Origin: an uncultured Nitrosomonadales bacterium
GTDB taxonomy: Bacteria > Pseudomonadota > Gammaproteobacteria > Burkholderiales > Gallionellaceae
DNA: 51,729 bases
NCBI GenBank assembly: GCA_903885165.1
Contig: CAISHO010000141.1
Location: forward strand, 1-51,729
Direction of reading: 5' to 3'
The notes beneath the pieces are model-generated. The model had not been told where the DNA came from, did no database searches, and was given only the letters and a program-made list of their open reading frames with translations. The translations under genes were made by a program, and so were the position numbers. Every line of letters begins with the position of its first letter. The first letter of the stretch is position 1. Positions 3,000 through 32,730 of the stretch are shown here, piece after piece.

Positions 3000-3470
3000 A
3001 TGGATATTACATTTACACTAATTGCGCAGGCGTTAACGTTTGCAATATTAATTTGGTTCACAGCCAAGTTCATCTGGCCGCCGTTGATGACGGCAATCGA
3101 AACCCGCCAAAAGACAATTGCGGACGGGTTGGCAGCAGGTGAGCGTGGTAAGCATGATCTGGATTTGGCCGCAAAGCGTTCAGCAGAAATGTTGCGCGAA
3201 GCGAAGCAAAAAGCGGCAGATATCCTGGCTGCTGGTGATAAGCGCGCAAGCGAAATCATTGAAGCAGCTAAGGTTCAGGCTAAGGTAGAAGGTGATCGCA
3301 TTATCGCTGGATCCAAGGCTGAGCTCGAACAAGAAGTATTCCGTGCTAGAGAGCAATTACGTTCCCAAGTGTCAGCCATAGCATTGGCAGGCGCTGGTAA
3401 GATTTTGGGCCGTGAAATTGACGCTAAGGCGCACAACGACTTGCTCGATAAACTTGTTGCGGAAATGTAA
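3000..3470 (+). CDS. atpF: ATP synthase F0 subunit b
   Basis: A 156-residue peripheral-stalk subunit. One N-terminal membrane helix (about residues 5-25, TLIAQALTFAILIWFTAKFIWPP) is followed by a long charged amphipathic helix rich in Ala, Glu, Lys and Arg that dimerises as a coiled coil and reaches F1. Length and N-terminus match the single-copy AtpF of proteobacteria; no b' gene is present. It lies 44 bp after atpE, and atpH begins 5 bp after its stop. Confidence 0.97.
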   Translation: MDITFTLIAQALTFAILIWFTAKFIWPPLMTAIETRQKTIADGLAAGERGKHDLDLAAKRSAEMLREAKQKAADILAAGDKRASEIIEAAKVQAKVEGDRIIAGSKAELEQEVFRAREQLRSQVSAIALAGAGKILGREIDAKAHNDLLDKLVAEM

Positions 3471-3475
3471 CCACC

Positions 3476-4009
3476 ATGTCTGAAGCCATAACCACAGCAC
3501 GTCCCTATGCGCAAGCGGCTTTCGATGCTGCGCAAAAACTGGCAGATTTGAAGGGCTGGTCGGAGGCTATCTTGTCTCTGGCCGAAGCGGTCAACCATCC
3601 TGAAGTTCAGGCGATCATCAACAGCCCGCGCGTAGCGCAAGCTGATATTGAAAGCTTAATGGACGGACTGTTGGGCGCTAAAGCCGTCGTTCAGCTTCGC
3701 AATTTTGTGCGAGTGCTGGCCGAAAACAAGCGTATGCAAATTCTCCCTGAAATCGCATCCCTCTTTGAGGTATTGCGTGCAGATGCAGAAAAGACCGCGC
3801 TCGTTGAGGTTGACTCAGCCTTTGAATTGTCAGATAAGCAGCAAGAAAACATCATCAGCTCACTGAAGAAACGCTTGGGCCGCGATATTAAACTTGTCTG
3901 TAAAATCAATAAAGATTTGCTGGGTGGTGTGGTCATCCGTACCGGAGACCAGGTGATCGATGGTTCTGCACGAACCCGTCTTGGCGAAATGGCAACCGCC
4001 CTAGCCTGA
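3476..4009 (+). CDS. atpH: ATP synthase F1 subunit delta
   Basis: A 177-residue F1 delta (OSCP-like) subunit linking the top of the alpha3beta3 head to the b-dimer stalk. It has the N-terminal helical domain ([21 protein letters not shown], the family's usual opening) and the C-terminal signature near [22 protein letters not shown] (about residues 145-170). The order atpF-atpH-atpA is standard, with 5 bp before it and 29 bp after. Confidence 0.97.
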
Positions 4010-4038
4010 TAAAGAATTATCAAGATAAGGAAATCCAG

Positions 4039-5580
4039 ATGAAGCTTGACCCTTCTGAAATAAGTAATTTGATTCGCAGCCGCATCGAGAACTTCGAAGC
4101 GCTGACTCAGGCACGCACCGAAGGTACGGTGGTCAGTGTTACTGATGGTATCGTACGTGTATACGGCTTGTCCGATGTTATGCAAGGTGAAATGTTGGAA
4201 TTCCCTGGCAACACATTTGGTCTGGCTTTGAACCTGGAACGTGATTCTGTAGGCGCCGTTATTCTGGGTGAATACGAACACATTACCGAAGGCGACACTG
4301 TTAAGTGCACCGGACGTATTCTGGAAGTGCCTGTAGGTCCTGAATTGTGCGGTCGCGTTGTTAATGCGCTCGGACAGCCTATCGACGGCAAGGGCCCTAT
4401 CAACGCCAAGATGACAGACAAGATTGAAAAGGTAGCGCCTGGCGTTATCGAGCGTCAATCTGTTGATCAACCTGTACAAACAGGTCTGAAGTCAATTGAC
4501 TCTATGGTGCCTGTAGGTCGCGGTCAACGCGAACTGATCATCGGCGATCGTCAGACTGGTAAAACAGCTGTTGCGATCGATGCGATCATCAACCAAAAGG
4601 GCCAGGGTATCACTTGTATCTATGTTGCGATCGGTCAGAAGGCTTCGACCATTGTTAACGTGGTTCGCAAGCTGGAAGAGCACGGCGCGCTGGGTTACAC
4701 CATCGTGGTTGCAGCTACCGCTTCTGATTCCGCTGCGATGCAGTTCCTGGCTCCTTACGCTGGCTGTACCATGGGTGAATATTTCCGTGATCGCGGTGAA
4801 GATGCACTGATCGTATACGACGACTTGACCAAGCAAGCTTGGGCATATCGTCAAATCTCTTTGTTGCTGCGTCGTCCACCAGGTCGCGAAGCATATCCTG
4901 GAGACGTTTTCTACCTGCATTCCCGTTTGCTCGAACGTGCAGCGCGCGTCAATGCAGAATATGTTGAAAAATTCACCAAGGGTGAAGTGAAGGGTAAGAC
5001 CGGTTCTTTGACCGCGTTGCCTATCATCGAAACTCAAGCCGGTGACGTTTCTGCATTCGTTCCAACCAATGTAATTTCGATTACCGATGGTCAGATCTTC
5101 CTTGAAACCGACTTGTTCAACGCCGGTATTCGTCCAGCGATCAACGCGGGTATTTCCGTGTCTCGCGTGGGTGGTGCTGCACAGACCAAGGTTATCAAGA
5201 AGCTGGGTGGCGGTGTTCGTCTTGCTCTTGCTCAGTATCGTGAATTGGCTGCATTTGCGCAGTTCGCGTCTGACTTGGATGAAGCGACACGTAAGCAATT
5301 GGAACGCGGCAAGTTGGTTACAGAACTGATGAAGCAATTGCAATATTGCCCGTTGTCTGTTGCTGAAATGGCTGTCACTTTGTTCTGCGTGAACAAGGGC
5401 TACTTTGATGACGTTGCGGTGACTAAGGCATTGGCATTCGAATCTGCCGTGCACGCCTATCTGAAATCCAAGAACAAGGAACTGATGGATACGATTGAAT
5501 CCAAGAAGGACCTGAGCGCGGATAATGAAAAGCTGTTGGCTGCTGCGATTGAGGAATTCAAAGCAACTGCAGTTTACTAA
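4039..5580 (+). CDS. atpA: ATP synthase F1 subunit alpha
   Basis: A 513-residue subunit, the same length as most proteobacterial alpha subunits. The non-catalytic nucleotide site has the P-loop GDRQTGKT at residues 169-176 and the [34 protein letters not shown] block downstream (split here by description only at its start and end). The N-terminus ([19 protein letters not shown]) is the family consensus that contacts subunit delta. It lies 29 bp after atpH and 13 bp before atpG. A long reading frame on the opposite strand here is a by-product of codon bias. Confidence 0.98.
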
Positions 5581-8518: not shown

Positions 8519-9880
8519 ATGAAACCGTTGAATGTTATTATTCTCGCTGCGGGTAAGGGTACTCGCATGTATTCCGCGAAGCCTAAGGTGTTGCACGCGC
8601 TCGCCGGTAAACCTTTGGTTGCCCACGTGCTCGATTGCGCACAATCTTTGAACCCTGAAAAGGTTTGTGTCGTTTACGGTCATGGCGGGGAATCGGTACC
8701 CCTGGCGATGGCTAAGTATGATGCGAGTTATGCGCTGCAAGAGCCGCAATTGGGTACTGGCCATGCTGTACAGCAGGCGGTACCACAATTATCGGATAAC
8801 TCTCAGACACTAGTTTTGTATGGTGATGTGCCGTTGATACAGCAGAAAACCTTGCACCAGATGTTGCAGTCTGGCGGACTGATGACGCTGCTCACGGTCA
8901 ATATGCCCAATCCTGCCGGTTACGGCCGTATCGTTCGCGATGAATCGGGTTCAGTCGTCGGTATCGTCGAGGAAAAGGACGCGACTGATGCGCAGCGGCT
9001 GATTCTGGAAGTGAATACCGGAATCATGCTGGTCGATACTGCTTTGCTGCGCCAGTGTCTGGCTAAATTGGGCAACAATAATGCGCAGGGCGAATACTAT
9101 CTCACCGATGTAGTCGAGCTTGCTGTCGCGCAAGGTGTGACGATACATACAACACAACCTGCCTATGAGTGGGAAATTCACGGGATCAACAACAAATCGC
9201 AGTTGGCGGTGTTGGAACGAACCTGGCAGCAGGTGCAGGCAACGGCCCTCTTAGCACAAGGCATCACTTTAGCTGACCCTGCCCGTATCGATGTACGTGG
9301 TAATCTGCAATGCGGTCAAGACGTCGAGATCGATGTGGGCTGTATCTTCGAGGGCAAGGTGCAACTTGGTAATAACGTACAAATCGGTGCTTACTGTGTG
9401 ATTAAAAATGCCACCATCTCTGATGGCACGCAGATCGCGCCTTTCAGTCATATCGATTCCAGCGAAGTGGGAGAAAATTGCCATATTGGCCCCTATGCTC
9501 GTCTGCGTCCAGGCACCAAATTGCACAATGATGTTCATGTCGGAAATTTTGTCGAGATCAAGAACAGCGAAATTTCACAAGCCAGCAAGGCCAATCACTT
9601 AAGTTATATAGGTGATGCAACCATAGGCAGCCGGGTTAATGTCGGCGCGGGTACCATCACCTGTAATTACGACGGGGCGAACAAATTCCGTACAATTATT
9701 GGAGACGATGTGTTTATCGGTTCTGATACTCAATTGGTCGCACCTGTGACGGTCGCGCGTGGTTCTACCATCGGTGCTGGCTCGACTATTACACGCAATA
9801 CACCGCCTGATGAGCTCTCGCTGTCCAGATCCAAACAAATGTCGATTCCAGGATGGAGTCGGCCAGTAAAAAAACGGTGA
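8519..9880 (+). CDS. glmU: Bifunctional GlmU: glucosamine-1-phosphate acetyltransferase / GlcNAc-1-phosphate uridylyltransferase
   Basis: Makes UDP-GlcNAc, the precursor of peptidoglycan and lipopolysaccharide. The N-terminal uridylyltransferase has LAAGKGTRM at residues 9-17. The C-terminal left-handed beta-helix hexapeptide domain (from about residue 240) has the acetyl-CoA region GAGTITCNYDGANK and a basic tail. An upstream in-frame ATG (8483) would add 12 residues, but the ATG at 8519 has AAGGAG at 8508-8513 and gives 453 residues, close to the E. coli length. glmS, the enzyme two steps earlier, follows after 87 bp that contain a 7-base-period repeat tract overlapping the stop. Confidence 0.97.
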   Translation: MKPLNVIILAAGKGTRMYSAKPKVLHALAGKPLVAHVLDCAQSLNPEKVCVVYGHGGESVPLAMAKYDASYALQEPQLGTGHAVQQAVPQLSDNSQTLVLYGDVPLIQQKTLHQMLQSGGLMTLLTVNMPNPAGYGRIVRDESGSVVGIVEEKDATDAQRLILEVNTGIMLVDTALLRQCLAKLGNNNAQGEYYLTDVVELAVAQGVTIHTTQPAYEWEIHGINNKSQLAVLERTWQQVQATALLAQGITLADPARIDVRGNLQCGQDVEIDVGCIFEGKVQLGNNVQIGAYCVIKNATISDGTQIAPFSHIDSSEVGENCHIGPYARLRPGTKLHNDVHVGNFVEIKNSEISQASKANHLSYIGDATIGSRVNVGAGTITCNYDGANKFRTIIGDDVFIGSDTQLVAPVTVARGSTIGAGSTITRNTPPDELSLSRSKQMSIPGWSRPVKKR

Positions 9881-24843: not shown

Positions 24844-25785
24844 TTATCCCGGAAATGAGCTGCGCGAAAATCCGCTGCGGGAAAACTCGCGATCGGATGA
24901 CATGTAGTTCGACAGCACCGATTGCGTGGACATACTGAAGCCGCGATACAAGTCCAAGTCGTAGTCGGACATGCGGATCTGATGTGATGCATTGCCCAGA
25001 TCGCGGATAAATTCATCCCAAGTGCTATAGCGCAAATCTTTGTCCTTTTTCAGCGCGCGCTCTATCACCGCGATCAGTTCTTTGGGCAATTGTTTGCGAT
25101 AGGTTTGGACCGGAACGATGGGGTAGTGAAGCACGGCGATTCGGGCATCGAAGGCGTTGTCCGCTTCGAAGGTGTTTTTGCCGGTCAGCAGGCGGTAGAG
25201 CACCGCGCCCAGCGAATAGATGTCAGCGCGCTGATCCAGTGCATCACCTTCCAGTTGTTCCGGGGACATATAGGCCAGACTGCCGGCAACGACCGCGCCC
25301 ATTTCGCTGGCCGGAATTGCGCAACCGAAGTCTGCCAGTTTGGCGAGTCCGTCCTTCATCAGGATAATATTGCCGGGTTTAACGTCGCGGTGCACCACCC
25401 CGAGACTGGCGGCATAACGCAGCGCGCCCGCTACTTGTTCGACGACCGACACCACCGTGCGGATAGGCAGCAGCGTTTCTCCCGTGTCGTGAGTGTCCAG
25501 CGATACGCCGTTGATGTATTCCATCACCAGATAAGGTCCGCTCTCTTCGTTTAAATCGGCATCGAGAACCTTGACGATGTTTTTGTGGCGCATCTTGTGC
25601 CCTAACTCCACCTCGGCGGTGAACATGGCCTGATAAATCTCTGACTGACGTCCGCGCCGCAATTGCTTGATGGCGACCGAGGCGAGTGATCCTCTGCGCT
25701 GTGCGTGATAGACGTTAGACGTCGCACCCTCACCTAACAGGTTGACGATGGAGTAATTGCCGATCTGGGCTGGGATGACGGCCAT
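24844..25785 (-). CDS. Hanks-type Ser/Thr protein kinase, cytosolic, short
   Basis: A 313-residue eukaryotic-like kinase. The Gly loop LGEGATSNVYHAQ, the ATP lysine in VAIKQLRRG, the catalytic loop VVHRDVKPGNIIL, DFG (LADFGCAIP) and SPEQLEGD as the APE-like motif are all present, so it should be active. After the kinase domain (ending about residue 265) comes a ~45-residue Ser/Arg/Phe-rich tail (SDREFSRSGFSRSSFPG at the end) that may be an autophosphorylation or docking segment. There is no membrane helix or extracellular sensor. No cognate phosphatase is in the window. The 154 bp upstream (25786-25939) hold its promoter region and show nothing else recognisable. Confidence 0.92.
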   Translation of the reverse strand: MAVIPAQIGNYSIVNLLGEGATSNVYHAQRRGSLASVAIKQLRRGRQSEIYQAMFTAEVELGHKMRHKNIVKVLDADLNEESGPYLVMEYINGVSLDTHDTGETLLPIRTVVSVVEQVAGALRYAASLGVVHRDVKPGNIILMKDGLAKLADFGCAIPASEMGAVVAGSLAYMSPEQLEGDALDQRADIYSLGAVLYRLLTGKNTFEADNAFDARIAVLHYPIVPVQTYRKQLPKELIAVIERALKKDKDLRYSTWDEFIRDLGNASHQIRMSDYDLDLYRGFSMSTQSVLSNYMSSDREFSRSGFSRSSFPG

Positions 25786-25939: not shown

Positions 25940-26575
25940 TTACCATTTGAGCAGGCGACCGCCCAGCAACCAGCCGAATATCCCTATACCCAGCATCGGC
26001 AGGTAGTGCCATTCGACGATATGCATGATGGAGTCCGTTGCTTCATGCAGTCTCAGCCACAAGGCACCGACACTGAAGGCGGAGAGCAGGGCGATACTGC
26101 CGGCCAAGTGGTAGCGTGTGCTGGCAAATTTGCGCATCTCGAAAAAAGTCCAGGCGGCGGGCAGCAATGAAAACAAGGTAATGCTGACCGTGCATTCTAC
26201 GCTGTGTACAGGCAGCGGCGAGCCGGGATGATCCGCCAGCCAGGCAAGAAACATGACCGTCAGCAGCAGCGCGAAAGCTGGCAGCGGCGCAAACGCTTTA
26301 CGGTGCATTTGGTGCAGATCAGGAAATGACAACAGGGCCGCACTCAGCGTCGACGCGGTGAAAATTCCTGTCAGCGCAACGATTTCAGCGACGAATAACG
26401 GCTGGTGCAGTTTGATCATCAGATCCGGTCTGGTTCTTGAAAAAAGGATAGCGACCAGTAGATATAACGCGGCGAAGACTATCCATTTAAGGCTCAATGC
26501 ATAAGGATGCAGCGCCGGTTTTACGGCAACCGGCTCTTCGGCTAGCGTGGCGATCAGCTCATCAATATTTGTCAT
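25940..26575 (-). CDS. nrsF: NrsF-type (DUF1109) six-helix membrane anti-sigma factor
   Basis: A 211-residue membrane protein with six predicted helices, the DUF1109/NrsF architecture. The conserved HSVECTVSITLFSLLPAAW segment (about residues 125-145) carries the cysteine used for redox or metal sensing in NrsF proteins. NrsF holds its ECF sigma factor inactive and releases it on reactive chlorine, peroxide or heavy-metal stress (known in Azospira and Caulobacter). It overlaps the sigma-factor stop by one base, so the two are translationally coupled. The regulated genes should be those facing away on the plus strand (msrB onwards). Confidence 0.9.
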   Translation of the reverse strand: MTNIDELIATLAEEPVAVKPALHPYALSLKWIVFAALYLLVAILFSRTRPDLMIKLHQPLFVAEIVALTGIFTASTLSAALLSFPDLHQMHRKAFAPLPAFALLLTVMFLAWLADHPGSPLPVHSVECTVSITLFSLLPAAWTFFEMRKFASTRYHLAGSIALLSAFSVGALWLRLHEATDSIMHIVEWHYLPMLGIGIFGWLLGGRLLKW

Positions 26576-27114
26576 TATCTTTCCAGTTTGCTTCTCAATA
26601 TCTTGTAGGCACGATGTGCGGCAACTTTGACGGCGGATTCATTCATGCCGGTTTTTTCTGCCACTTCTTTTGCGGTATAGCCTTCGCCATGCATCATTTG
26701 CAAGATTGTCGCCTGTTTTTCGGGAAGTTTTTTTACCTCTGCATGAATAGATTCGTAACTTAAGCCGGTTTCGGTTACAGCTTCCGGCAAAGATTCCTCC
26801 AGTTCATCAAAATCTACCGCATGGCGCAGCTGATCGGCGTAATGCGCGCGCAAAAAATCCTGCAAGCGAAACCGGGCGATGGCATAAGCCCAGGGCACGT
26901 AAGGACGCAGGCCATCGTAGGTATGGCGTGCCTTGTGGATGGAGATCAGAATTTCCTGCGTCAGGTCGTCCACCTCATTGGAGAAACTCAGGCGTCGTGC
27001 CAGAAACGGGCGCAACAAGCATGCCGTCTCCTGTAACAAGGTGGCGTAAGCGCGCTGGTCGCCTTCGAGCGAGCGCTGCATCAATGCTTCCAGCTTGTTG
27101 TTCTGCCCCGTCAC
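26575..27114 (-). CDS. ECF RNA polymerase sigma factor (SigF/NrsF-partner type)
   Basis: A 179-residue ECF sigma factor. Region 2 is DDLTQEILISIHKARHTYDG with PWAYAIARFRLQDFLR; region 4 is LPEKQATILQMMHGEGYTAKEVAEKTGMNESAVKVAAHRAY. There is no C-terminal extension. The frame is open to a GTG at 27141, but the GTG at 27114 has AAGGA five to six bases upstream and is the better start. The longer version would begin inside the plus-strand promoter at 27125-27150. Directly followed by nrsF. It probably directs transcription from the two GTAACC-N16-CGAA sites. No minus-strand copy of that site was found before its own start, so autoregulation is not evident. Confidence 0.92.
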   Translation of the reverse strand: MTGQNNKLEALMQRSLEGDQRAYATLLQETACLLRPFLARRLSFSNEVDDLTQEILISIHKARHTYDGLRPYVPWAYAIARFRLQDFLRAHYADQLRHAVDFDELEESLPEAVTETGLSYESIHAEVKKLPEKQATILQMMHGEGYTAKEVAEKTGMNESAVKVAAHRAYKILRSKLER

Positions 27115-27124
27115 CCTATCCTTT

Positions 27125-27150
27125 GTAACCTTTTTTAGCACCGGTGCGAA
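27125..27150 (+). promoter_or_regulatory. Predicted ECF sigma promoter for msrB-dipZ-msrA
   Basis: GTAACC at 27125-27130, a 16-base spacer beginning with six T, then CGAA at 27147-27150. The same -35, spacer length and -10, with the same T6-A after the -35, occur at 30250-30275 before the DUF2282 operon. From memory, the Caulobacter SigF/NrsF system uses GTAACC-N16-CGAA. Transcription would start near 27157, about 70 bases before the msrB ATG, and the element overlaps the 5' edge of the divergent sigma gene. Confidence 0.75.
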
Positions 27151-27227
27151 TACCTGTACAGACGGGGCGCATCATAACTTGTTTCGCAGCATCATCCGAA
27201 TTTCACCAACACGCAAGGAGGCACATC

Positions 27228-27881
27228 ATGCAACGCAGAGAGTTTATTTTCGCACTATCAGGACTGGCGGTGGGGTTTGCCTTGCGTTCAGGTTCAGCCT
27301 TCGCCGGCAATAAAGTTGTCATCATGCAGTTCTCAGATGACGGCAAGCCTTTGAGGGCGGTGACGCTGGATAAGGTAGTACGTGATTTGGAATGGAAAAA
27401 ACGATTATCGCCGCTGGCCTATCACGTGACGCGCGAGCAAGGCACTGAACCGGCTTTTTCCGTGCCGGGATATGATAAACATGAGCCGGGGCTATATCGC
27501 TGTGTGTGCTGCGACAACGCGCTGTTCGATGCTGCGACAAAATTCGATTCCGGCACGGGCTGGCCCAGCTTCTGGCAACCGGTTGCGCCGCAAAATGTGC
27601 GTGAGATTGCCGACCACCTGTTCGGCATGACGCGTACCGAAGTTCAATGCGCGCTGTGCGACGCGCATCTGGGCCATGTGTTCGACGATGGCCCCAAGCC
27701 CACCGGGCTGCGCTATTGTATGAACAGTGTGGCGATGAAATTTTTGCCTCACGGGCATGGCAATAATGCCAGACCTGATAATGAAGCTCGCCATGCCAGT
27801 TCCTCTCTTTTCAACTCTCCCCCGCATGCGGGGGAGAGGGCAAAGGTATCGCTACGCGAATTTCACGTTAAATGGGGATAA
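27228..27881 (+). CDS. msrB: Exported peptide-methionine (R)-S-oxide reductase MsrB, with repeat-derived C-terminus
   Basis: Reduces methionine-R-sulfoxide in proteins. The N-terminus carries a twin-arginine type signal (MQRREFIFALSGLAVGFALR, cleavage near AFA), so it is probably exported folded. The fold is complete: zinc cysteines in C92-V-C-C95 and C141-A-L-C144, GTGWPSFW, and the catalytic Cys164 in RYCMNSVAMKF. Thr110 stands where many MsrBs have the resolving cysteine (SGTGWPSF), so it is a one-Cys type. AAGGAGG (27215-27221) fixes the start. After MKFLPH (residue 175) the last ~42 residues are encoded by a dispersed palindromic repeat and are not part of the family. First gene of the msrB-dipZ-msrA unit. 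Confidence 0.93.
   Translation: MQRREFIFALSGLAVGFALRSGSAFAGNKVVIMQFSDDGKPLRAVTLDKVVRDLEWKKRLSPLAYHVTREQGTEPAFSVPGYDKHEPGLYRCVCCDNALFDAATKFDSGTGWPSFWQPVAPQNVREIADHLFGMTRTEVQCALCDAHLGHVFDDGPKPTGLRYCMNSVAMKFLPHGHGNNARPDNEARHASSSLFNSPPHAGERAKVSLREFHVKWG
27753..27871. repeat. Dispersed palindromic element, copy A (inside the 3' end of msrB)
   Basis: A 119-bp element also found at 42586-42780. Shared blocks in order: GGGCATGGCAA, ATAATGAA(G/A)CTCGCCATGCC, a CTCTCCC/GCGGG palindromic core, and TCGCTACGCGA(A/G)TTT(C/T)ACGTTAA. GGCATGGC and GCCATGCC form an inverted pair. In this copy the core is a perfect 24-base palindrome at 27815-27838. It contributes about 42 codons and the stop region of msrB. 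Confidence 0.8.
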
Positions 27882-27883
27882 TC

Positions 27884-29560
27884 ATGCTGATATTTTTTCT
27901 CTCCTATCTGGGTGGTGTGCTCACCATCTTCAGCCCTTGTGTATTACCGGTGCTGCCCTTTGTCTTTGCCCGTTCGGATCAGTCGTTCCGTCGTTCCGGA
28001 TTACCGATTTTGCTGGGCATGGCGGTGACATTTACCGTGTTGGCCAGTCTTGCGGCGGTGGGCGGGTCCTGGCTGGTAAAGCTCAATCAATACGGTCGCT
28101 TTGCGGCGATGTTGCTATTGCTGTTGATGGGCGCTGCGCTGATATTTCCCGCTATGTCGGAATGGTTGATGCGGCCCTTTGTTGCGCTGGGCGGCCAACT
28201 GCAACAGCGCGCCGACCGCCAGAATACACTGCGTGGTTCATTGTTGCTTGGCGTGGCGATTGGTTTTTTGTGGGCGCCTTGTGCAGGCCCAATTTTGGGG
28301 CTAGTGCTGGCAGGTGCGGCGCTGAACGGCGCGAATTTCTACAGCGCGATGTTATTGCTGGTATTTGCCGCCGGTGCTGCAACCTCATTGGGTTTAGCGC
28401 TGCTGGCGGGCGGCCGCGTCTTCCGTATGATGAAGCGTGGACTGGGGGCGGAGGAATGGTTGCGACGCGGTCTGGGGGTAGCGGTTGTCGCCGGTGTGTT
28501 GTTTATCGCGCTGGGCTGGGATAGCCGATTTTTTGCGCAGTTTAATTTTCTCAATACCGCCGGTGCGGAGCAAAAGCTGTTGACGAAACTGGATAGCCCG
28601 GTGCCTCAATTCGGTGCTATGCCGTCTTTGAATGGCGCGACTCAGTGGCTCAATTCGCCGCCACTCAGTTCTGAGGCGCTGCGCGGTAAAGTGGTGCTGG
28701 TGGATTTTTGGACTTATTCCTGTATCAACTGTCTGCGCACACTGCCTTATTTGAAAGCGTGGGATGAAAAATATCGTTCACAGGGACTCGTGATTATCGG
28801 AGTGCATGCACCGGAATTCGCTTTTGAAAAGGATATTCACAATGTCGAGCAAGCGGTGCGCGATTTGGCTATTCACTATCCGGTGGCGATAGATAATCAG
28901 TATGCGATTTGGAATGCCTATAAAAATGAATACTGGCCTGCGCATTATCTGATTGACCAGCAAGGCGTCATTCGCCATCAGCATTTCGGAGAAGGCGCGT
29001 ATCTCGAGACCGAGCAGATGATACAAACGCTGCTAAAAGAGGCGCATCAAGGACAGATTGCTCAGGACAAGACGGTACAGGTTGCGGGTGACGGTGTGAC
29101 TGCCGCTGCTGCCGATGTCGCGCGATCGCCGGAAACTTATTTAGGTTATGCGCGGGCTGAAAATATGGTTTCCCCGGAAGTCGTAGCAAAGGATCAATCG
29201 GCAAGTTACAGCGCACTGCGTCGCCTCAAGCCGGATCAGTGGGCGTTAAGTGGTAACTGGCTGATATCCTCTGAATCTGCTGCGCTGCAAGCACCCGGTG
29301 GCGCAATCAGTTACCGTTTTCAGGGGCGGGATTTGCATCTGGTGATGGGGAGCACTAAACCCGTTCGTTTCAAGGTCACGCTGGATGGCGCGGCACCCGG
29401 TAAAAACCACGGTGCGGATATCGATGGTCAAGGCAACGGTATCCTTAGCGATCAGCGTCTCTACCAGCTTATCCGGCAAAGCGGGGAAATCAAGGAGCGC
29501 ACATTCCGTATCGAATTTCTGGATAACGGGGCAGAAGCCTTTGCCTTCACCTTCGGTTAA
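27884..29560 (+). CDS. dipZ: DipZ-type membrane thiol:disulfide interchange protein
   Basis: A 558-residue three-part protein. The N-terminal ~230 residues are a CcdA/DsbD-like membrane domain with the paired cysteines Cys19 (IFSPCVLPVLPF) and Cys133 (LWAPCAGPILG) that carry electrons across the membrane. A TlpA-like thioredoxin domain follows with CxxC at Cys280/Cys283 (YSCINCLRTLPYL) and the cis-Pro region WPAHYLIDQQG. The last ~140 residues form the beta-sandwich typical of DipZ (LSGNWLISSESAALQAPG). It should pass cytosolic thioredoxin electrons to periplasmic partners, here most likely MsrB and MsrA on either side. The start at 27884 lies 2 bp after the msrB stop, with GGGGA upstream. 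Confidence 0.93.
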   Translation: MLIFFLSYLGGVLTIFSPCVLPVLPFVFARSDQSFRRSGLPILLGMAVTFTVLASLAAVGGSWLVKLNQYGRFAAMLLLLLMGAALIFPAMSEWLMRPFVALGGQLQQRADRQNTLRGSLLLGVAIGFLWAPCAGPILGLVLAGAALNGANFYSAMLLLVFAAGAATSLGLALLAGGRVFRMMKRGLGAEEWLRRGLGVAVVAGVLFIALGWDSRFFAQFNFLNTAGAEQKLLTKLDSPVPQFGAMPSLNGATQWLNSPPLSSEALRGKVVLVDFWTYSCINCLRTLPYLKAWDEKYRSQGLVIIGVHAPEFAFEKDIHNVEQAVRDLAIHYPVAIDNQYAIWNAYKNEYWPAHYLIDQQGVIRHQHFGEGAYLETEQMIQTLLKEAHQGQIAQDKTVQVAGDGVTAAAADVARSPETYLGYARAENMVSPEVVAKDQSASYSALRRLKPDQWALSGNWLISSESAALQAPGGAISYRFQGRDLHLVMGSTKPVRFKVTLDGAAPGKNHGADIDGQGNGILSDQRLYQLIRQSGEIKERTFRIEFLDNGAEAFAFTFG

Positions 29561-29577
29561 CAAAAAGGAGTTTTACC

Positions 29578-30174
29578 ATGAAAAAAATATCTCGTTTTCT
29601 TTGTGCGCTGATTTTAATGGCCTCCGCCGCAGCCTCGGCGGCTGAACAAACTGCTGTGTTTGCCGGAGGTTGTTTCTGGGGCGTCGATGCGGTGTTCAAA
29701 CACGTCAAAGGAGTGAGCGACGTGGTCTCAGGCTATGCGGGCGGTGCGGCGTCAACCGCGCATTATGAACAGGTCAGCGATGGCGATACGGGGCACGCTG
29801 AAGCGGTGCGCATTCGTTTTGATCCGGCAAAGGTCAGCTATGCGCAATTGTTACAGGTATTTGTTAGTGTGTCGCACGATCCCACACAACTAAATCGCCA
29901 GGGGCCGGATGCCGGTAGCCAGTATCGCTCAGTGATTTTCTACACCAGTTCGGAGCAGCAAAAACTGGCCGACAGCTACATGCGCCAGCTGAGTGCCGCC
30001 AGAACTTTTGCCGCGCCCATCGTCACTCATGTAGTGCCGTTGCAAGCGTTTTATCCGGCGGAAGCGTATCACCAGAATTATCTGTCATTGCACCCTGATC
30101 AGCCCTATATCGTGTACTACGATTTGCCGAAACTCGCACAACTACGAAGACAGTTTCCGGCGTTGTATCAGTGA
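29578..30174 (+). CDS. msrA: Exported peptide-methionine (S)-S-oxide reductase MsrA, single-cysteine type
   Basis: Reduces methionine-S-sulfoxide. A Sec signal peptide (KKISRFLCALILMASAAASA, cleavage after about residue 22) sends it to the periplasm. The catalytic motif AGGCFWGVDAVF places the nucleophile at Cys32, and SGYAGG, TGHAEAV and YRSVIFY complete the active site. Cys32 is the only cysteine in the mature protein, so the usual C-terminal resolving cysteines are missing and an external reductant must act on the sulfenic acid. GGAG lies upstream of the ATG, and it is 17 bp after dipZ. It ends the operon. Confidence 0.95.
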   Translation: MKKISRFLCALILMASAAASAAEQTAVFAGGCFWGVDAVFKHVKGVSDVVSGYAGGAASTAHYEQVSDGDTGHAEAVRIRFDPAKVSYAQLLQVFVSVSHDPTQLNRQGPDAGSQYRSVIFYTSSEQQKLADSYMRQLSAARTFAAPIVTHVVPLQAFYPAEAYHQNYLSLHPDQPYIVYYDLPKLAQLRRQFPALYQ

Positions 30175-30249
30175 TTTATATCAAATGCTTTTATTTGCAA
30201 TATTTTGTATATTTATAAGTGGGTTCCGGATGTTTTTTTAAAAAAATTC

Positions 30250-30275
30250 GTAACCTTTTTTAAGGTTGTTCCGAA
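30250..30275 (+). promoter_or_regulatory. Predicted ECF sigma promoter for the DUF2282-DUF692 operon
   Basis: GTAACC at 30250-30255, a 16-base spacer starting with six T, and CGAA at 30272-30275, the same arrangement as at 27125-27150. The -35 sits in a small inverted repeat (AACCTT / AAGGTT). It lies in the 208-bp gap between msrA and the DUF2282 gene and would give a leader of about 100 bases, in which no further element was recognised. Confidence 0.78.
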
Positions 30276-30382
30276 TCCATCAGTGCATAGGAGATGAAAG
30301 CAAAATGATCGAATATGTATCGAGATAGTTAATCAGTTTTGTAATTTGGGGATTATCCCTGTTAACCTAAAGGAGTTTCAAC

Positions 30383-30667
30383 ATGAACAAGCAAGCGATT
30401 TTGACAACAGCCATCGGTGGTTTACTGGCATTGGGTCTGGCGGGGACGGCGAGTGCTGCAGATCATCCGATGGAGAAATGTTTCGGTATTTCCAAGGCTG
30501 GTATGAACGATTGCAGCAGCAAAAAATCAGGTCATTCCTGTGCGGGGCAGGCTACAAAGAACAGCGATGCCAACGATTTTGTCTCCGTACCTAAAGGAAC
30601 CTGCAACAAGATCGCCGGCGGGGTGTTGATGGAAAGCGGTGACATGATGATGAAAAAGGCGATGTAA
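30383..30667 (+). CDS. bufA: BufA-type DUF2282 precursor peptide (bufferin)
   Basis: A 94-residue small exported protein. The Sec signal peptide ends about residue 25 (LGLAGTASA). The mature part has the four-cysteine DUF2282 pattern at Cys33 (MEKCFGISKAG), Cys44 (NDCSSKK), Cys53 (SCAGQAT) and Cys74 (PKGTCNKIAGG), followed by a Met-rich end (MESGDMMMKKAM). Recent work on bufferins shows such peptides are modified at cysteines by MNIO enzymes and bind copper in the periplasm. AAAGGAG precedes the ATG. Its stop overlaps the bufB start by one base. This is the likely substrate of the DUF692 enzyme next to it. Confidence 0.92.
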   Translation: MNKQAILTTAIGGLLALGLAGTASAADHPMEKCFGISKAGMNDCSSKKSGHSCAGQATKNSDANDFVSVPKGTCNKIAGGVLMESGDMMMKKAM

Positions 30668-31500
30668 TGAATTTGCCCGCAAATGATCTGTTGCCGTGTT
30701 CTGCAGGGATAGGTTTGCGGGCGCCACATTACCGCGAAGTACTGGACACCTTGCCGGCCTTGGGTTGGGTGGAAGTGCACAACGAGAATTTTTTTGGCGG
30801 AGGCGCGCCGCTGCGTACCTTGCTCAAGGTGCGCGAACACTACCCCGTCAGCCTGCACGGCGTGGGTATGGGCTTGGCCTCAACTGCGCCATTGAATGAA
30901 CAGCATTTGTCAGCGCTGCAACGCTTATGTGATGCCGTGCAACCTGTCGCCATATCCGAGCATCTGTGCTGGAATTCGGCGGACGGTTTTGTGGTCAACG
31001 ATCTCTTGCCATTCCCCTACACCATGGAAGCGTTATCGCATGTGGCGCGTCGCATCGATCGCGTACAGGAAAAACTGGGTCGTCAGTTGCTGGTGGAAAA
31101 TCTGTCCAGTTATTTGTCTTTTGCTCAGAGCGAGATGACCGAGGGTGAATTTCTTGCCGAGCTGGTGCGCCGTACTGGTTGCGGCATTTTGTTTGATGTG
31201 GAAAATTTATACGTCAATGTGTGCAATCTCGGTGTGGATGCCAGGGCCTTTATCGATGTGATCCCGCATGAGGCGGTAAAGGAATATCACCTGGCCGGTT
31301 ACTCTGTCTGCGATGGCTGTCTGGTGGATACGCACAACCATCCTGTTTATCCTGAAGTGTGGGCCTTGTATGAGTATGTGTTACAGCACATAGGACCGCG
31401 ACCCACGTTAATCGAGTGGGACAGCGACATTCCCGCGCTGCCGGTGTTGTTAGCGGAAGCCGCGAAGGCGCAACTGCGTATGGATGGTTGTCATGAGTGA
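30667..31500 (+). CDS. bufB: BufB, DUF692-family multinuclear iron oxidase (MNIO) maturase
   Basis: A 277-residue TIM-barrel DUF692 enzyme. The metal ligands of MNIOs are visible in order: HGVGMGL (His), ISEHLCWN (Glu, His), LVENLSSYL (Glu, Asn), LFDVENLYVN (Asp, Asn), EYHLAGY (His), DTHNHPVYPE (Asp, His) and IEWDSDIP (Glu, Asp). MNIOs oxidise cysteine thiolates of a bound precursor; in bufferins they form thiooxazole-type rings. The one-base overlap with bufA and 8-base overlap with bufC indicate a coupled unit. Confidence 0.94.
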   Translation: MNLPANDLLPCSAGIGLRAPHYREVLDTLPALGWVEVHNENFFGGGAPLRTLLKVREHYPVSLHGVGMGLASTAPLNEQHLSALQRLCDAVQPVAISEHLCWNSADGFVVNDLLPFPYTMEALSHVARRIDRVQEKLGRQLLVENLSSYLSFAQSEMTEGEFLAELVRRTGCGILFDVENLYVNVCNLGVDARAFIDVIPHEAVKEYHLAGYSVCDGCLVDTHNHPVYPEVWALYEYVLQHIGPRPTLIEWDSDIPALPVLLAEAAKAQLRMDGCHE

Positions 31501-32269
31501 TCTGAATCAGACGCTGAGCCTTTTTGCGCGTGCCATCGTGTCTGGCGAGGCTGTTTCTACGGAAATAATCGCGGCATACCCGAATTACTCCTGTGATACC
31601 GCGATCGAGGTCTATCGCAACAATTATCGCGGGAATCTGCACGATGCGCTCGCGTGTGCCTATCCGGTCATCGTGCAGCTGGTGGGCGATGATTTTTTTC
31701 GATTTCTGGCAAAAAAATATATTGAATATAATCAATCATCAAGCACAAATATGCACGATTATGGCGCCGTGATGGCCAATTTTCTGGCGGACTTCGAGCC
31801 GGTTCGGCAATTACCCTATTTGCCGGACATGGCCAGGCTGGAGTGGGCATGTCATGTTGCCTACTATGCAGATGACCGGGTGCCGTTGTCGCTCGAATCG
31901 CTGGCGCAGATACCCGCAGCGCGCTATGCGGATTTAGTGTTGCAGACGGCAGGTCAGGTGATCCGTTCGAGTTTTCCGGTTGCGGCAATCTGGCAGGCGC
32001 ACCAATCCGCGATGAGTGAGGATTTTCATCTCGATCTGTCGGACGGACCTGGCATCTTTCTGGTGAGCCGCCGGGACTGCTTCGTTGAGGTCAGCGAGCT
32101 CTCCGTGTCTGATGCCGACTGGTTACAGCGCATCCAAAGTGGCCAATCGCTTGGTGCGGCAACCATGGAAACAATCGAGCGCTACCCGGATTTTGATTTG
32201 CAGGCAGCGCTACTCAACTTGCTCGCCTGTGCAGCCTTGACGAGTTTCAGTTTGGAGACGACAACATGA
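31493..32269 (+). CDS. bufC: BufC, DUF2063 partner protein of the MNIO
   Basis: A 258-residue DUF2063 protein. The N-terminal helical domain (LNQTLSLFARAIVSGEA, then EVYRNNYRGNLHDALACAYPVIVQLVGDDFF) is the family signature, once labelled a putative DNA-binding domain but shown in RiPP systems to serve as the precursor-recognition partner of the DUF692 enzyme. The C-terminal half is less conserved. The ATG at 31493 lies inside the bufB stop region (8-base overlap); an ATG at 31484 would add three residues. doxX overlaps its stop by 4 bases. Confidence 0.92.
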   Translation: MSDLNQTLSLFARAIVSGEAVSTEIIAAYPNYSCDTAIEVYRNNYRGNLHDALACAYPVIVQLVGDDFFRFLAKKYIEYNQSSSTNMHDYGAVMANFLADFEPVRQLPYLPDMARLEWACHVAYYADDRVPLSLESLAQIPAARYADLVLQTAGQVIRSSFPVAAIWQAHQSAMSEDFHLDLSDGPGIFLVSRRDCFVEVSELSVSDADWLQRIQSGQSLGAATMETIERYPDFDLQAALLNLLACAALTSFSLETTT

Positions 32270-32730
32270 GAGGGATCTTGCGACTCTATTTCCGCGCCTC
32301 ACGCTGGCCTGAATATCTGGCGCCGCTACTCGATCTGGGTTTGCGTCTATTTCTGGCGACAGTGTTTTTTAAATCGGGACTGACCAAAATACAGAACTGG
32401 GACAGCACACTGTATTTATTTAGCGATGTCTATCAGGTGCCGCTGCTCAATCCGGAATGGGCGGCTTATCTGGCAACCGGCGGGGAGTTAGGCTTGCCGG
32501 TGCTGCTGGCGGCAGGATTGTTCGGGCGTTTCGCCGCTGCAGGTTTGTTCATTCTCAATCTGGTCGCCGTCATCTCGTACTATCCGGAGTTGAGCGAGGC
32601 AGGGATCAACCAGCATCTATACTGGGGAATACTGCTGGCTGTGCTGTTGATCCTCAGCCGGAACACCTGTTCAATAGACCGTTGGCTGGAGCTAAATTTC
32701 ACCAATACGGGCGATGAAGCGCTTTTATAG
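32266..32730 (+). CDS. DoxX-family membrane protein
   Basis: A 154-residue membrane protein with four predicted helices and the DoxX family motif LLDLGLRLFLATVFFKSGLTKI near the N-terminus. DoxX proteins commonly close DUF2282-DUF692-DUF2063 operons; they may handle quinol or thiol redox at the membrane, but no activity is firmly tied to bufferins. The start overlaps the bufC stop (ATGA). It converges with purU; the 74-bp gap shows no clear terminator. Confidence 0.9.
   Translation: MRGILRLYFRASRWPEYLAPLLDLGLRLFLATVFFKSGLTKIQNWDSTLYLFSDVYQVPLLNPEWAAYLATGGELGLPVLLAAGLFGRFAAAGLFILNLVAVISYYPELSEAGINQHLYWGILLAVLLILSRNTCSIDRWLELNFTNTGDEALL

Follow-up and report, generated by a model that had tools for sequence, protein, structure and literature searches.

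The island at positions 25940-32730 of a 51,729-nucleotide contig from an uncultured Nitrosomonadales bacterium of the Gallionellaceae (CAISHO010000141.1, assembly GCA_903885165.1; the whole contig is referred to here as the window) carries a gene pair for an extracytoplasmic function (ECF) sigma factor and an NrsF-like anti-sigma factor on the minus strand, next to plus-strand genes for methionine sulfoxide reductases (Msr) with an electron carrier (msrB-dipZ-msrA) and for a bufferin peptide pathway (DUF2282-DUF692-DUF2063-DoxX). It raises the question whether the sigma factor controls both plus-strand units as one regulon, and how the sigma factor and its anti-sigma factor are themselves controlled. 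Our reading, which we hold with a probability of about 0.74, is that the locus forms a divergently arranged ECF16 sigma/NrsF regulon in which the sigma factor starts three transcripts, one of them a transcript of nrsF from a promoter inside the sigma factor gene. The genes, promoters, conservation and class split described below are based on sequence; the transcription, the signal and the physiology are what we infer.

The promoters of the ECF16 sigma factor SigF of Caulobacter crescentus have the consensus GTAACC-N16-CGAA (PMC3511200). Two plus-strand sites in the window match this consensus, both of the form GTAACCTTTTTTA...CGAAT with a 16-base spacer, one upstream of msrB (27125-27151, divergent from the sigma factor gene) and one upstream of the DUF2282 gene (30250-30276). 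In the genome of the bacterium (2.44 Mb in 151 contigs) these two promoters are the only matches to GTAACC-N16-CGAAT, and with spacers N14/18 four matches were found, namely the two target promoters, the intragenic element described below and one site at C15 (N17). The class of loci to which the window belongs (class B, see below) provided 67 target promoters selected by GTAAC-N16-CGAA; these have C or T after GTAAC in about 95%, T at spacer bases 2-4 in 96-99% and T after CGAA in 87%. Because both operons bear matching ECF16 promoters, the best reading is that msrB-dipZ-msrA and the bufferin operon belong to one predicted sigma-controlled regulon. The msr promoter starts 10 bp from the start codon of the sigma factor gene on the opposite strand (27112-27151), so that divergent transcription of the msr and sigma factor genes may interfere.

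An earlier note on this DNA had allowed for the msr-dipZ and bufferin units being neighbours only by chance in this lineage, and a comparison of 158 genomes of the family indicates that chance is not the explanation. NrsF was found in 58, MNIO (DUF692) in 49 and the DipZ C-terminal domain in 62 of these genomes. NrsF and the DipZ domain co-occur in 41 genomes and lie within 12 kb of each other in 34 of them, for NrsF and MNIO the figures are 31 genomes with both and 16 with the two inside 12 kb, and all three are found within 12 kb in 11 genomes. An N16 site was present within 700 bp of MsrB genes in 40 of 48 cases at nrsF-positive family loci and in 1 of 4 cases at other class B loci, and within 450 bp of bufA in 13/17 and 1/1 cases, respectively. 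Bufferin operons located far from nrsF in nrsF-positive genomes still have the promoter in 10 of 16 cases (a 17th, L294, ends at a contig edge and was omitted). Where nrsF is missing, the N16 site was found in none of seven msr-dipZ cassettes (7 of 21 such genomes examined) and at 3 of 12 bufA genes, two of these three genomes being only 64% complete. The 12 derive from 18 nrsF-negative MNIO loci, of which six without a bufA match belong to other MNIO families, and L315 has little upstream sequence. The difference between nrsF-positive and nrsF-negative genomes is significant for msrB (40/48 versus 0/7, Fisher p 3e-5) and for bufA when near and distal genes are pooled (23/33 versus 3/12, p 0.015), kinship being ignored in both tests.

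That the two operons are chance neighbours and are not both under this sigma factor is therefore very improbable, given promoters of the same type at both units, the clustering in 11 genomes and the promoters retained by distal bufferin operons. It would accord with the msr-dipZ cassettes and some of the bufferin operons that lack the promoter in nrsF-negative relatives, and with the mobility of the bufferin unit, which is found near the sigma factor or far from it. In two nrsF-negative loci (L308 and L310) a different bufferin operon adjoins msr-dipZ and the promoter is absent, from which it follows that bufferin and msr-dipZ units associate even without this sigma factor. Among 49 family loci with 4 kb of flanking sequence, MNIO is near the sigma factor in 14 and Msr in 41; the bufferin unit is an optional member of the regulon. 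The proposal of the earlier note that all parts form a single system holds as far as it describes one regulon joining methionine sulfoxide repair, membrane electron supply and bufferin, given the matching promoters and the 10 of 16 distal bufferin operons; the claims of novelty and of copper as the evident signal are not supported in the form proposed (see below).

The loci with NrsF and an adjacent sigma factor fall into two classes. The class survey comprised 140 loci, consisting of 59 from the family, 80 from searches at order, class and phylum level (a part of the class- and phylum-level NrsF matches entered the survey) and the window. Scoring was possible for 134 loci, the others having no NrsF by profile (L158, L200) or no adjacent sigma factor (L063, L073, L151, L157). 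Class A, the canonical form, contains 58 loci and class B contains 76, including the window. All 58 class A NrsF proteins have both conserved cysteines, whereas class B NrsF has the first in 76/76 and the second in 0/76, with Glu in the second-Cys column in all 76 and R-L-x-E-x-x-[DN]-S-x-x-H-x-x-x-W-H-Y as the usual reading around it. When named genomes were scanned with an alignment of class B NrsF, 80 of 83 relatives were retained. Many of these bear the label Gallionella, Gallionellaceae, Sideroxydans, Nitrosomonadales, Nitrotoga, Sulfuricella or Nitrosomonas; three are labelled Alphaproteobacteria and one is labelled Rickettsiales. The window itself probably comes from a Gallionella-like iron oxidiser. 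These 80 named loci overlap the unnamed survey set, and are thus not independent of it; Glu occupies the second-Cys column in 80/80, and in three (L277, L279, L282) a Cys occurs at another position of this region. In a tree of the sigma factors one branch parts class A from class B with a Shimodaira-Hasegawa-like approximate likelihood ratio (SH-aLRT) support of 99, subject to a long-branch warning.

The two classes also differ upstream of the sigma factor gene. With the loose pattern GTAACN-N14/18-CGA[AT], an ECF16-like site was found directly upstream in 49 of 58 class A loci and in 4 of 76 class B loci, and a same-pattern comparison gave 26/42 for class A and 0/66 for class B. No ECF16 N15/16 site was found upstream of the sigma factor gene in any of 78 named class B loci, and position weight matrix scores of this region in class B equal those of shuffled sequence (median -9.1 versus -9.5). 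The hexamer TATGAT, which was spotted by eye prior to counting, lies upstream of the sigma factor gene in 17 of 66 class B and 0 of 42 class A loci (shuffled sequence, about 5% and 2%). The class B sigma factor itself seems to be made from a non-ECF16 promoter.

What class B has in place of the upstream site, and what the earlier note had missed, is a promoter-like element within the sigma factor gene. A GTAAC-N17-CGAA site pointing at nrsF occurs inside this gene in 71 of 76 class B loci and in 0 of 58 class A loci. In the window the element (GTAACC-N17-CGAAT, 26751-26778, minus strand) lies in the linker that joins sigma region 2 to region 4 and reaches the beginning of the latter; the nrsF start codon is about 175 bp further downstream. 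Of the 80 named loci, 78 have a usable sigma factor gene and 75 of these bear the element (absent in L239, L252 and L257), including the three alphaproteobacterial loci and the one from Rickettsiales. Codon use was examined in 65 class B sigma factor genes from which near copies had been removed, with the rest of the same genes as background. At the element Val is encoded by GTA in 62/62 genes (16.8% elsewhere), Thr by ACC in 60/63 (47%), Tyr by TAC in 62/63 (55%) and Glu by GAA in 64/65 (63%). Among 30 four-fold degenerate columns in these 65 genes, only the Val and Thr columns of the element have a top codon at 90% or more, and in 55 sigma factor genes of the family these two columns use GTA wherever Val is present and ACC wherever Thr is present. 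This near-fixed codon use over GTAACC and CGAA shows that the DNA of the element is constrained.

These features suggest the following circuit. NrsF, a membrane protein with six predicted helices, would hold the sigma factor until a signal, either an oxidant or a metal, arrives on its periplasmic side, presumably at C128 and the invariant Glu and His residues, and frees it. The free sigma factor would start msrB-dipZ-msrA, yielding exported methionine sulfoxide reductases and their electron supply from the cytoplasm; it would also start the bufferin operon, yielding a modified peptide that binds metal and has a tail rich in Met, and nrsF alone from the promoter inside the sigma factor gene. 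With the sigma factor made from a non-ECF16 promoter, activation would raise only the brake NrsF, so that the active sigma factor probably raises its own anti-sigma factor.

Several results weigh against this circuit. When the T after CGAA is left free, one further GTAACC-N16-CGAA site, without T-tract, appears in the genome (C110), and a relaxed search for GTAACN-N15/16-CGAA gave 25 matches against 41 in the reversed control, which is no excess; we therefore claim no further regulon members in this genome. Six of the 16 distal bufferin operons in nrsF-positive genomes have no promoter, and for distal bufA alone the comparison with nrsF-negative genomes (10/16 versus 3/12) gives a Fisher p of 0.067, kinship again being ignored. 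The divergent N16 site beside the sigma factor is absent in 12 of 58 family loci and 3 of 18 other class B loci. Upstream of the sigma factor gene, the loose pattern did match in class B at L047, L064, L086 and L087 (the last three near-identical; the window is not among them), and a housekeeping promoter for the sigma factor leans on a TATGAT present in only 17 of 66 class B loci. The intragenic element is absent in five of 76 class B loci (L044, L055, L071, L079 and L058, the sigma factor gene of L058 being cut by a contig end). Its spacer is 17 bases in every class B element found, versus 16 in the targets. It also lacks a T-tract, whereas almost every target promoter has one after the -35 box; for these two reasons it may be a weak promoter or have another role. 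In L044 and L071, which have lost the element, the sigma factor gene is immediately preceded, on the same strand, by a bufferin operon that has a promoter of its own; L040, L053 and L068 have the same layout and retain the element.

The deviating spacer and missing T-tract would also fit an element that is not the promoter of nrsF. It could instead reflect a constraint on coding, act as a pause site, or start a small RNA that is made from the last part of the sigma factor gene. In class B the amino acids V-T and Y-E are conserved in their own right, and the small RNA MicL of Escherichia coli, which starts at an RpoE promoter within a coding sequence, offers a precedent (PMC8103513). We consider this explanation unlikely. 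Over GTAACC and CGAA, third positions are near fixed even where synonymous codons would encode the same residue. In three Nitrosomonas members the sixth base is variable and GTAAC and CGAA are retained, and class A, with its upstream promoter in 49 of 58 loci, has no such site in 58 of 58. A promoter for nrsF remains our preferred reading of the element.

The class B NrsF itself indicates that sensing differs from that in studied systems. The window protein (25940-26575, minus strand; Pfam PF06532, 2e-38) has a single Cys, C128, and Glu in the second-Cys column of class A, so the pair of conserved cysteines of studied NrsF proteins (C131/C181, C129/C179) is not found in it; it scores only 26.5 bits against the NCBIfam NrsF equivalog model, the cut-off of which is 300. 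An AlphaFold2 model (mean predicted local distance difference test score, pLDDT, 92.4) has six long helices, and a Foldseek search of this model against the PDB gave no match with E below 0.001. In 55 sequences C127, E177, H184 and H189 are invariant and H123 is nearly so (numbering without the start Met; C127 corresponds to C128 with it). The model places these residues at helix ends that would be periplasmic, assuming a cytoplasmic N-terminus. The NrsF-type protein OsrA of Bradyrhizobium has C129 and C179, and C179 is needed for its response to H2O2 (PMC3420878). Since Glu replaces this second Cys, class B NrsF must sense in another way.

With respect to the signal, copper seemed evident in the earlier note, and the window offers reasons for it. 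Its bufferin operon, which bears an ECF16 promoter, is a complete Buf1 operon with the features of that cluster: a DUF2282 precursor (30383-30667, plus strand; Pfam PF10048, 2e-23) with four core Cys and a Met-rich C-terminal tail, the MNIO maturase BufB (30667-31500, plus strand; Pfam MbnB_TglH_ChrH, 7e-103; NCBIfam NF050167 MNIO_BufB, 365 bits, cut-off 310) and a DUF2063 partner protein (31484-32269, plus strand; Pfam PF09836, 3e-20; NCBIfam HvfC model under its cut-off). The product is predicted to be a metal-binding modified peptide, for which the family suggests thiooxazole Cys and copper binding. In C. crescentus, Cu induces the SigF regulon, to which MsrPQ and two DUF692 clusters belong, and cells with a mutated sigF are sensitive to Cu (PMC8224329). 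A Caulobacter-like copper response, with bufferin as the main effector and Msr mending copper damage, is accordingly conceivable, and we rate it as doubtful rather than unlikely. Bufferin is optional where Msr is common (14 versus 41 of the 49 family loci), class B NrsF is without the second Cys, and in some relatives the co-regulated genes suggest methionine oxidation together with reactive chlorine. These comparisons do not uphold copper as the evident signal.

These co-regulated genes come from a set of 10 class B loci chosen for their layout, in which the first genes after N16 promoters were inspected. Six encode exported Met-rich peptides matching penta_MxKDx, above the cut-off in L076, L065 and L045 and below it in L163, L159 and L072. 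In the Nitrotoga locus L086 the first gene after the class B promoter (3467-4336) has a signal-like leader and belongs to the chlorite dismutase family (Pfam 7e-27; the related HemQ models of NCBIfam are under their cut-off). A search of the window's genome for the MxKDx family gave no match, but the controls were equally silent and absence is not implied. The bufferins themselves vary in their tails. Those of class B or linked to the promoter have a median of 3 Met after the last Cys (n=36), compared to 1 in unlinked bufferins of the family (n=12, p 2e-4) and 1 in class A (n=25, p 4e-7), kinship being ignored. This test omits L315, where the precursor is cut, and L200, and its linked group includes the nrsF-negative L308 and L310, located beside msr-dipZ, and second precursors of L293, L295 and L301. 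The bufferin tails of L308 and L310 resemble MxKDx repeats. The MxKDx peptides, the chlorite dismutase-family gene and the Met-rich bufferin tails point to methionine oxidation or reactive chlorine as much as to copper. Given also the precedents of Azospira and Brucella, in which a Met-rich peptide and Msr are controlled together under reactive chlorine, methionine oxidation is at least as likely a signal as copper. As a separate observation, in the class B locus L161 the first gene after the divergent N16 promoter (8849-9175) matches a domain model of HvfA-type KCGExKCG ribosomally synthesized and post-translationally modified peptides, and a class B sigma factor may thus control another MNIO-linked peptide family.

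The repair unit of the window comprises exported MsrB (27228-27881, plus strand; Pfam SelR, 3e-48; ATG start at 27228), the DipZ-type membrane thiol electron carrier (27872-29560, plus strand; Pfam DsbD_TM, AhpC-TSA/Redoxin and Thioredoxin_10, the DipZ layout) and exported MsrA (29578-30174, plus strand; Pfam PMSR, 9e-60). Exported MsrA and MsrB, export being judged by eye (for MsrB from a Tat-like twin-arginine leader), thus adjoin a DsbD/CcdA-type carrier with a thioredoxin-like CxxC domain. Read from the sequence, DipZ has a TlpA-like CxxC domain, a C-terminal Thioredoxin_10 domain and the cysteines CINC and SPC/APC. MsrA has, by count, a single Cys besides its leader, in GCFWG, and this single catalytic Cys would fit direct reduction by the DipZ thioredoxin domain.

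The combination was held in the earlier note to be possibly undescribed, and close precedents exist (PMC8224329, PMC3420878, PMC7907618, PMC3240639). Joint control of Msr and bufferin is a variant of a known regulon, and the idea is largely published. In Neisseria and Haemophilus, the DoxX gene cluster that is co-regulated with msrAB is, we assume, of the DUF2282-DUF692-DUF2063-DoxX type. There a single ECF sigma factor governs msrAB and this cluster (SigE-MseR and RpoE2-HrsE; PMC3240639, PMC7907618), differing from the window in small unrelated anti-sigma factors and a fused MsrAB; DsbD is not named in the main text on Neisseria. The C. crescentus SigF-NrsF system shares with the window NrsF, the GTAACC-N16-CGAA promoters, the DUF2282-DUF692-DUF2063-DoxX operon and a periplasmic methionine sulfoxide reductase in the regulon (PMC3511200, PMC8224329). 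It differs in the two conserved Cys of NrsF, in a sigF promoter upstream of sigF and in a reductase of MsrPQ type instead of MsrA/MsrB with DipZ. EcfF-OsrA of Bradyrhizobium japonicum, also ECF16, governs three Msr genes and, in addition, a membrane-anchored thioredoxin and a membrane protein resembling DsbD, which are proposed to supply the reductases; apart from the second Cys of OsrA, it differs in an upstream autoregulated promoter and in genes scattered over several units, and the main text does not name DUF692 and gives several regulon genes as hypothetical (PMC3420878). Azospira SigF-NrsF and Brucella BcrS-AbcS are alike in ECF16 control of a Met-rich peptide and Msr under reactive chlorine (PMC8315932; Azospira via citing text); their reductase is of YedY/MsrPQ type, Brucella AbcS has both Cys, and the available text describes no intragenic element. 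The wiring itself has a counterpart in Corynebacterium glutamicum, where the anti-sigma gene rshA is additionally transcribed from the sigma-dependent PrshA, located in the sigH coding region, and sigH is transcribed from housekeeping promoters (PMC3489674). SigH, RshA and their promoter are unrelated to those of the window, and the available text gives no cross-species or codon comparison.

No description of class B was recognised in titles and abstracts on intragenic anti-sigma promoters, on ECF16 or on Gallionella with these families, most subscription papers being outside this coverage. Likewise, no paper on bufferin together with methionine sulfoxide was found in the literature covered, with the same restriction. 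Class B, with its one-Cys NrsF and intragenic element, is thus apparently an undescribed subclass within that literature, which is not proof of novelty. The prevailing view is that the majority of ECF operons regulate themselves positively, and ECF promoter prediction leans on autoregulated ones (review PMC8103513). An element hidden in coding sequence would make an ECF system of this kind look unregulated, and class A and class B offer a ready-made contrast between two ways of wiring feedback into the same regulon. The one-Cys NrsF makes a sensing mechanism hitherto credited to the second cysteine directly testable, and the regulon links bufferins, which until now were investigated for copper, to the oxidation of methionine and perhaps to reactive chlorine. 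Speculatively, class B may be a rewired sigma switch, present across several proteobacterial groups, that has lost both positive autoregulation and the second sensor Cys. Its codon-embedded promoter would feed only the anti-sigma factor and allow a fast reset. The output would be a methionine-based oxidant sink, consisting of exported Met-rich peptides or of bufferins. The Met-rich tails of the latter would be the first to be oxidised, and MsrA/MsrB would then reduce them again, using electrons that DipZ delivers, so that a single recyclable peptide would both bind copper and scavenge oxidants. We put this wider picture forward as a tentative possibility.

The gene set, order and strands of the earlier note agree with Pfam and NCBIfam for every gene. 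The ECF16-type sigma factor gene (26575-27114, minus strand; Pfam sigma-70 regions 2 and 4) overlaps nrsF in the sequence TAATG. Its open reading frame extends to 27141, and GTG 27114 (180 codons including the stop) is more probably the start than GTG 27141, because many relatives share a GTGAC or ATGAC start, as judged by eye. The bufferin operon ends with a DoxX membrane protein gene (32266-32730, plus strand; Pfam PF07681, 9e-19; HvfX model under its cut-off), and NrsF, MNIO and the DipZ C-terminal domain are each present in one copy in the genome. Immediately 3' of nrsF, on the same strand, lies a gene for a PknB-like Ser/Thr kinase (24844-25785, minus strand; Pkinase, 7e-48), for which a motif scan of the window found no separate GTAACC-N14/19-CGAAT site. 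The 3' end of msrB, which encodes an MsrB with an unusual C-terminal extension, contains a perfect palindrome, CTCCCCCGCATGCGGGGGAG (27817-27836); it was considered as a dispersed repeat and dropped, having a single copy in the genome. Finally, msrA and the DUF2282 gene are preceded by alike 30-base leaders that include the ribosome site (29556-29585 and 30361-30390, 83% identical).

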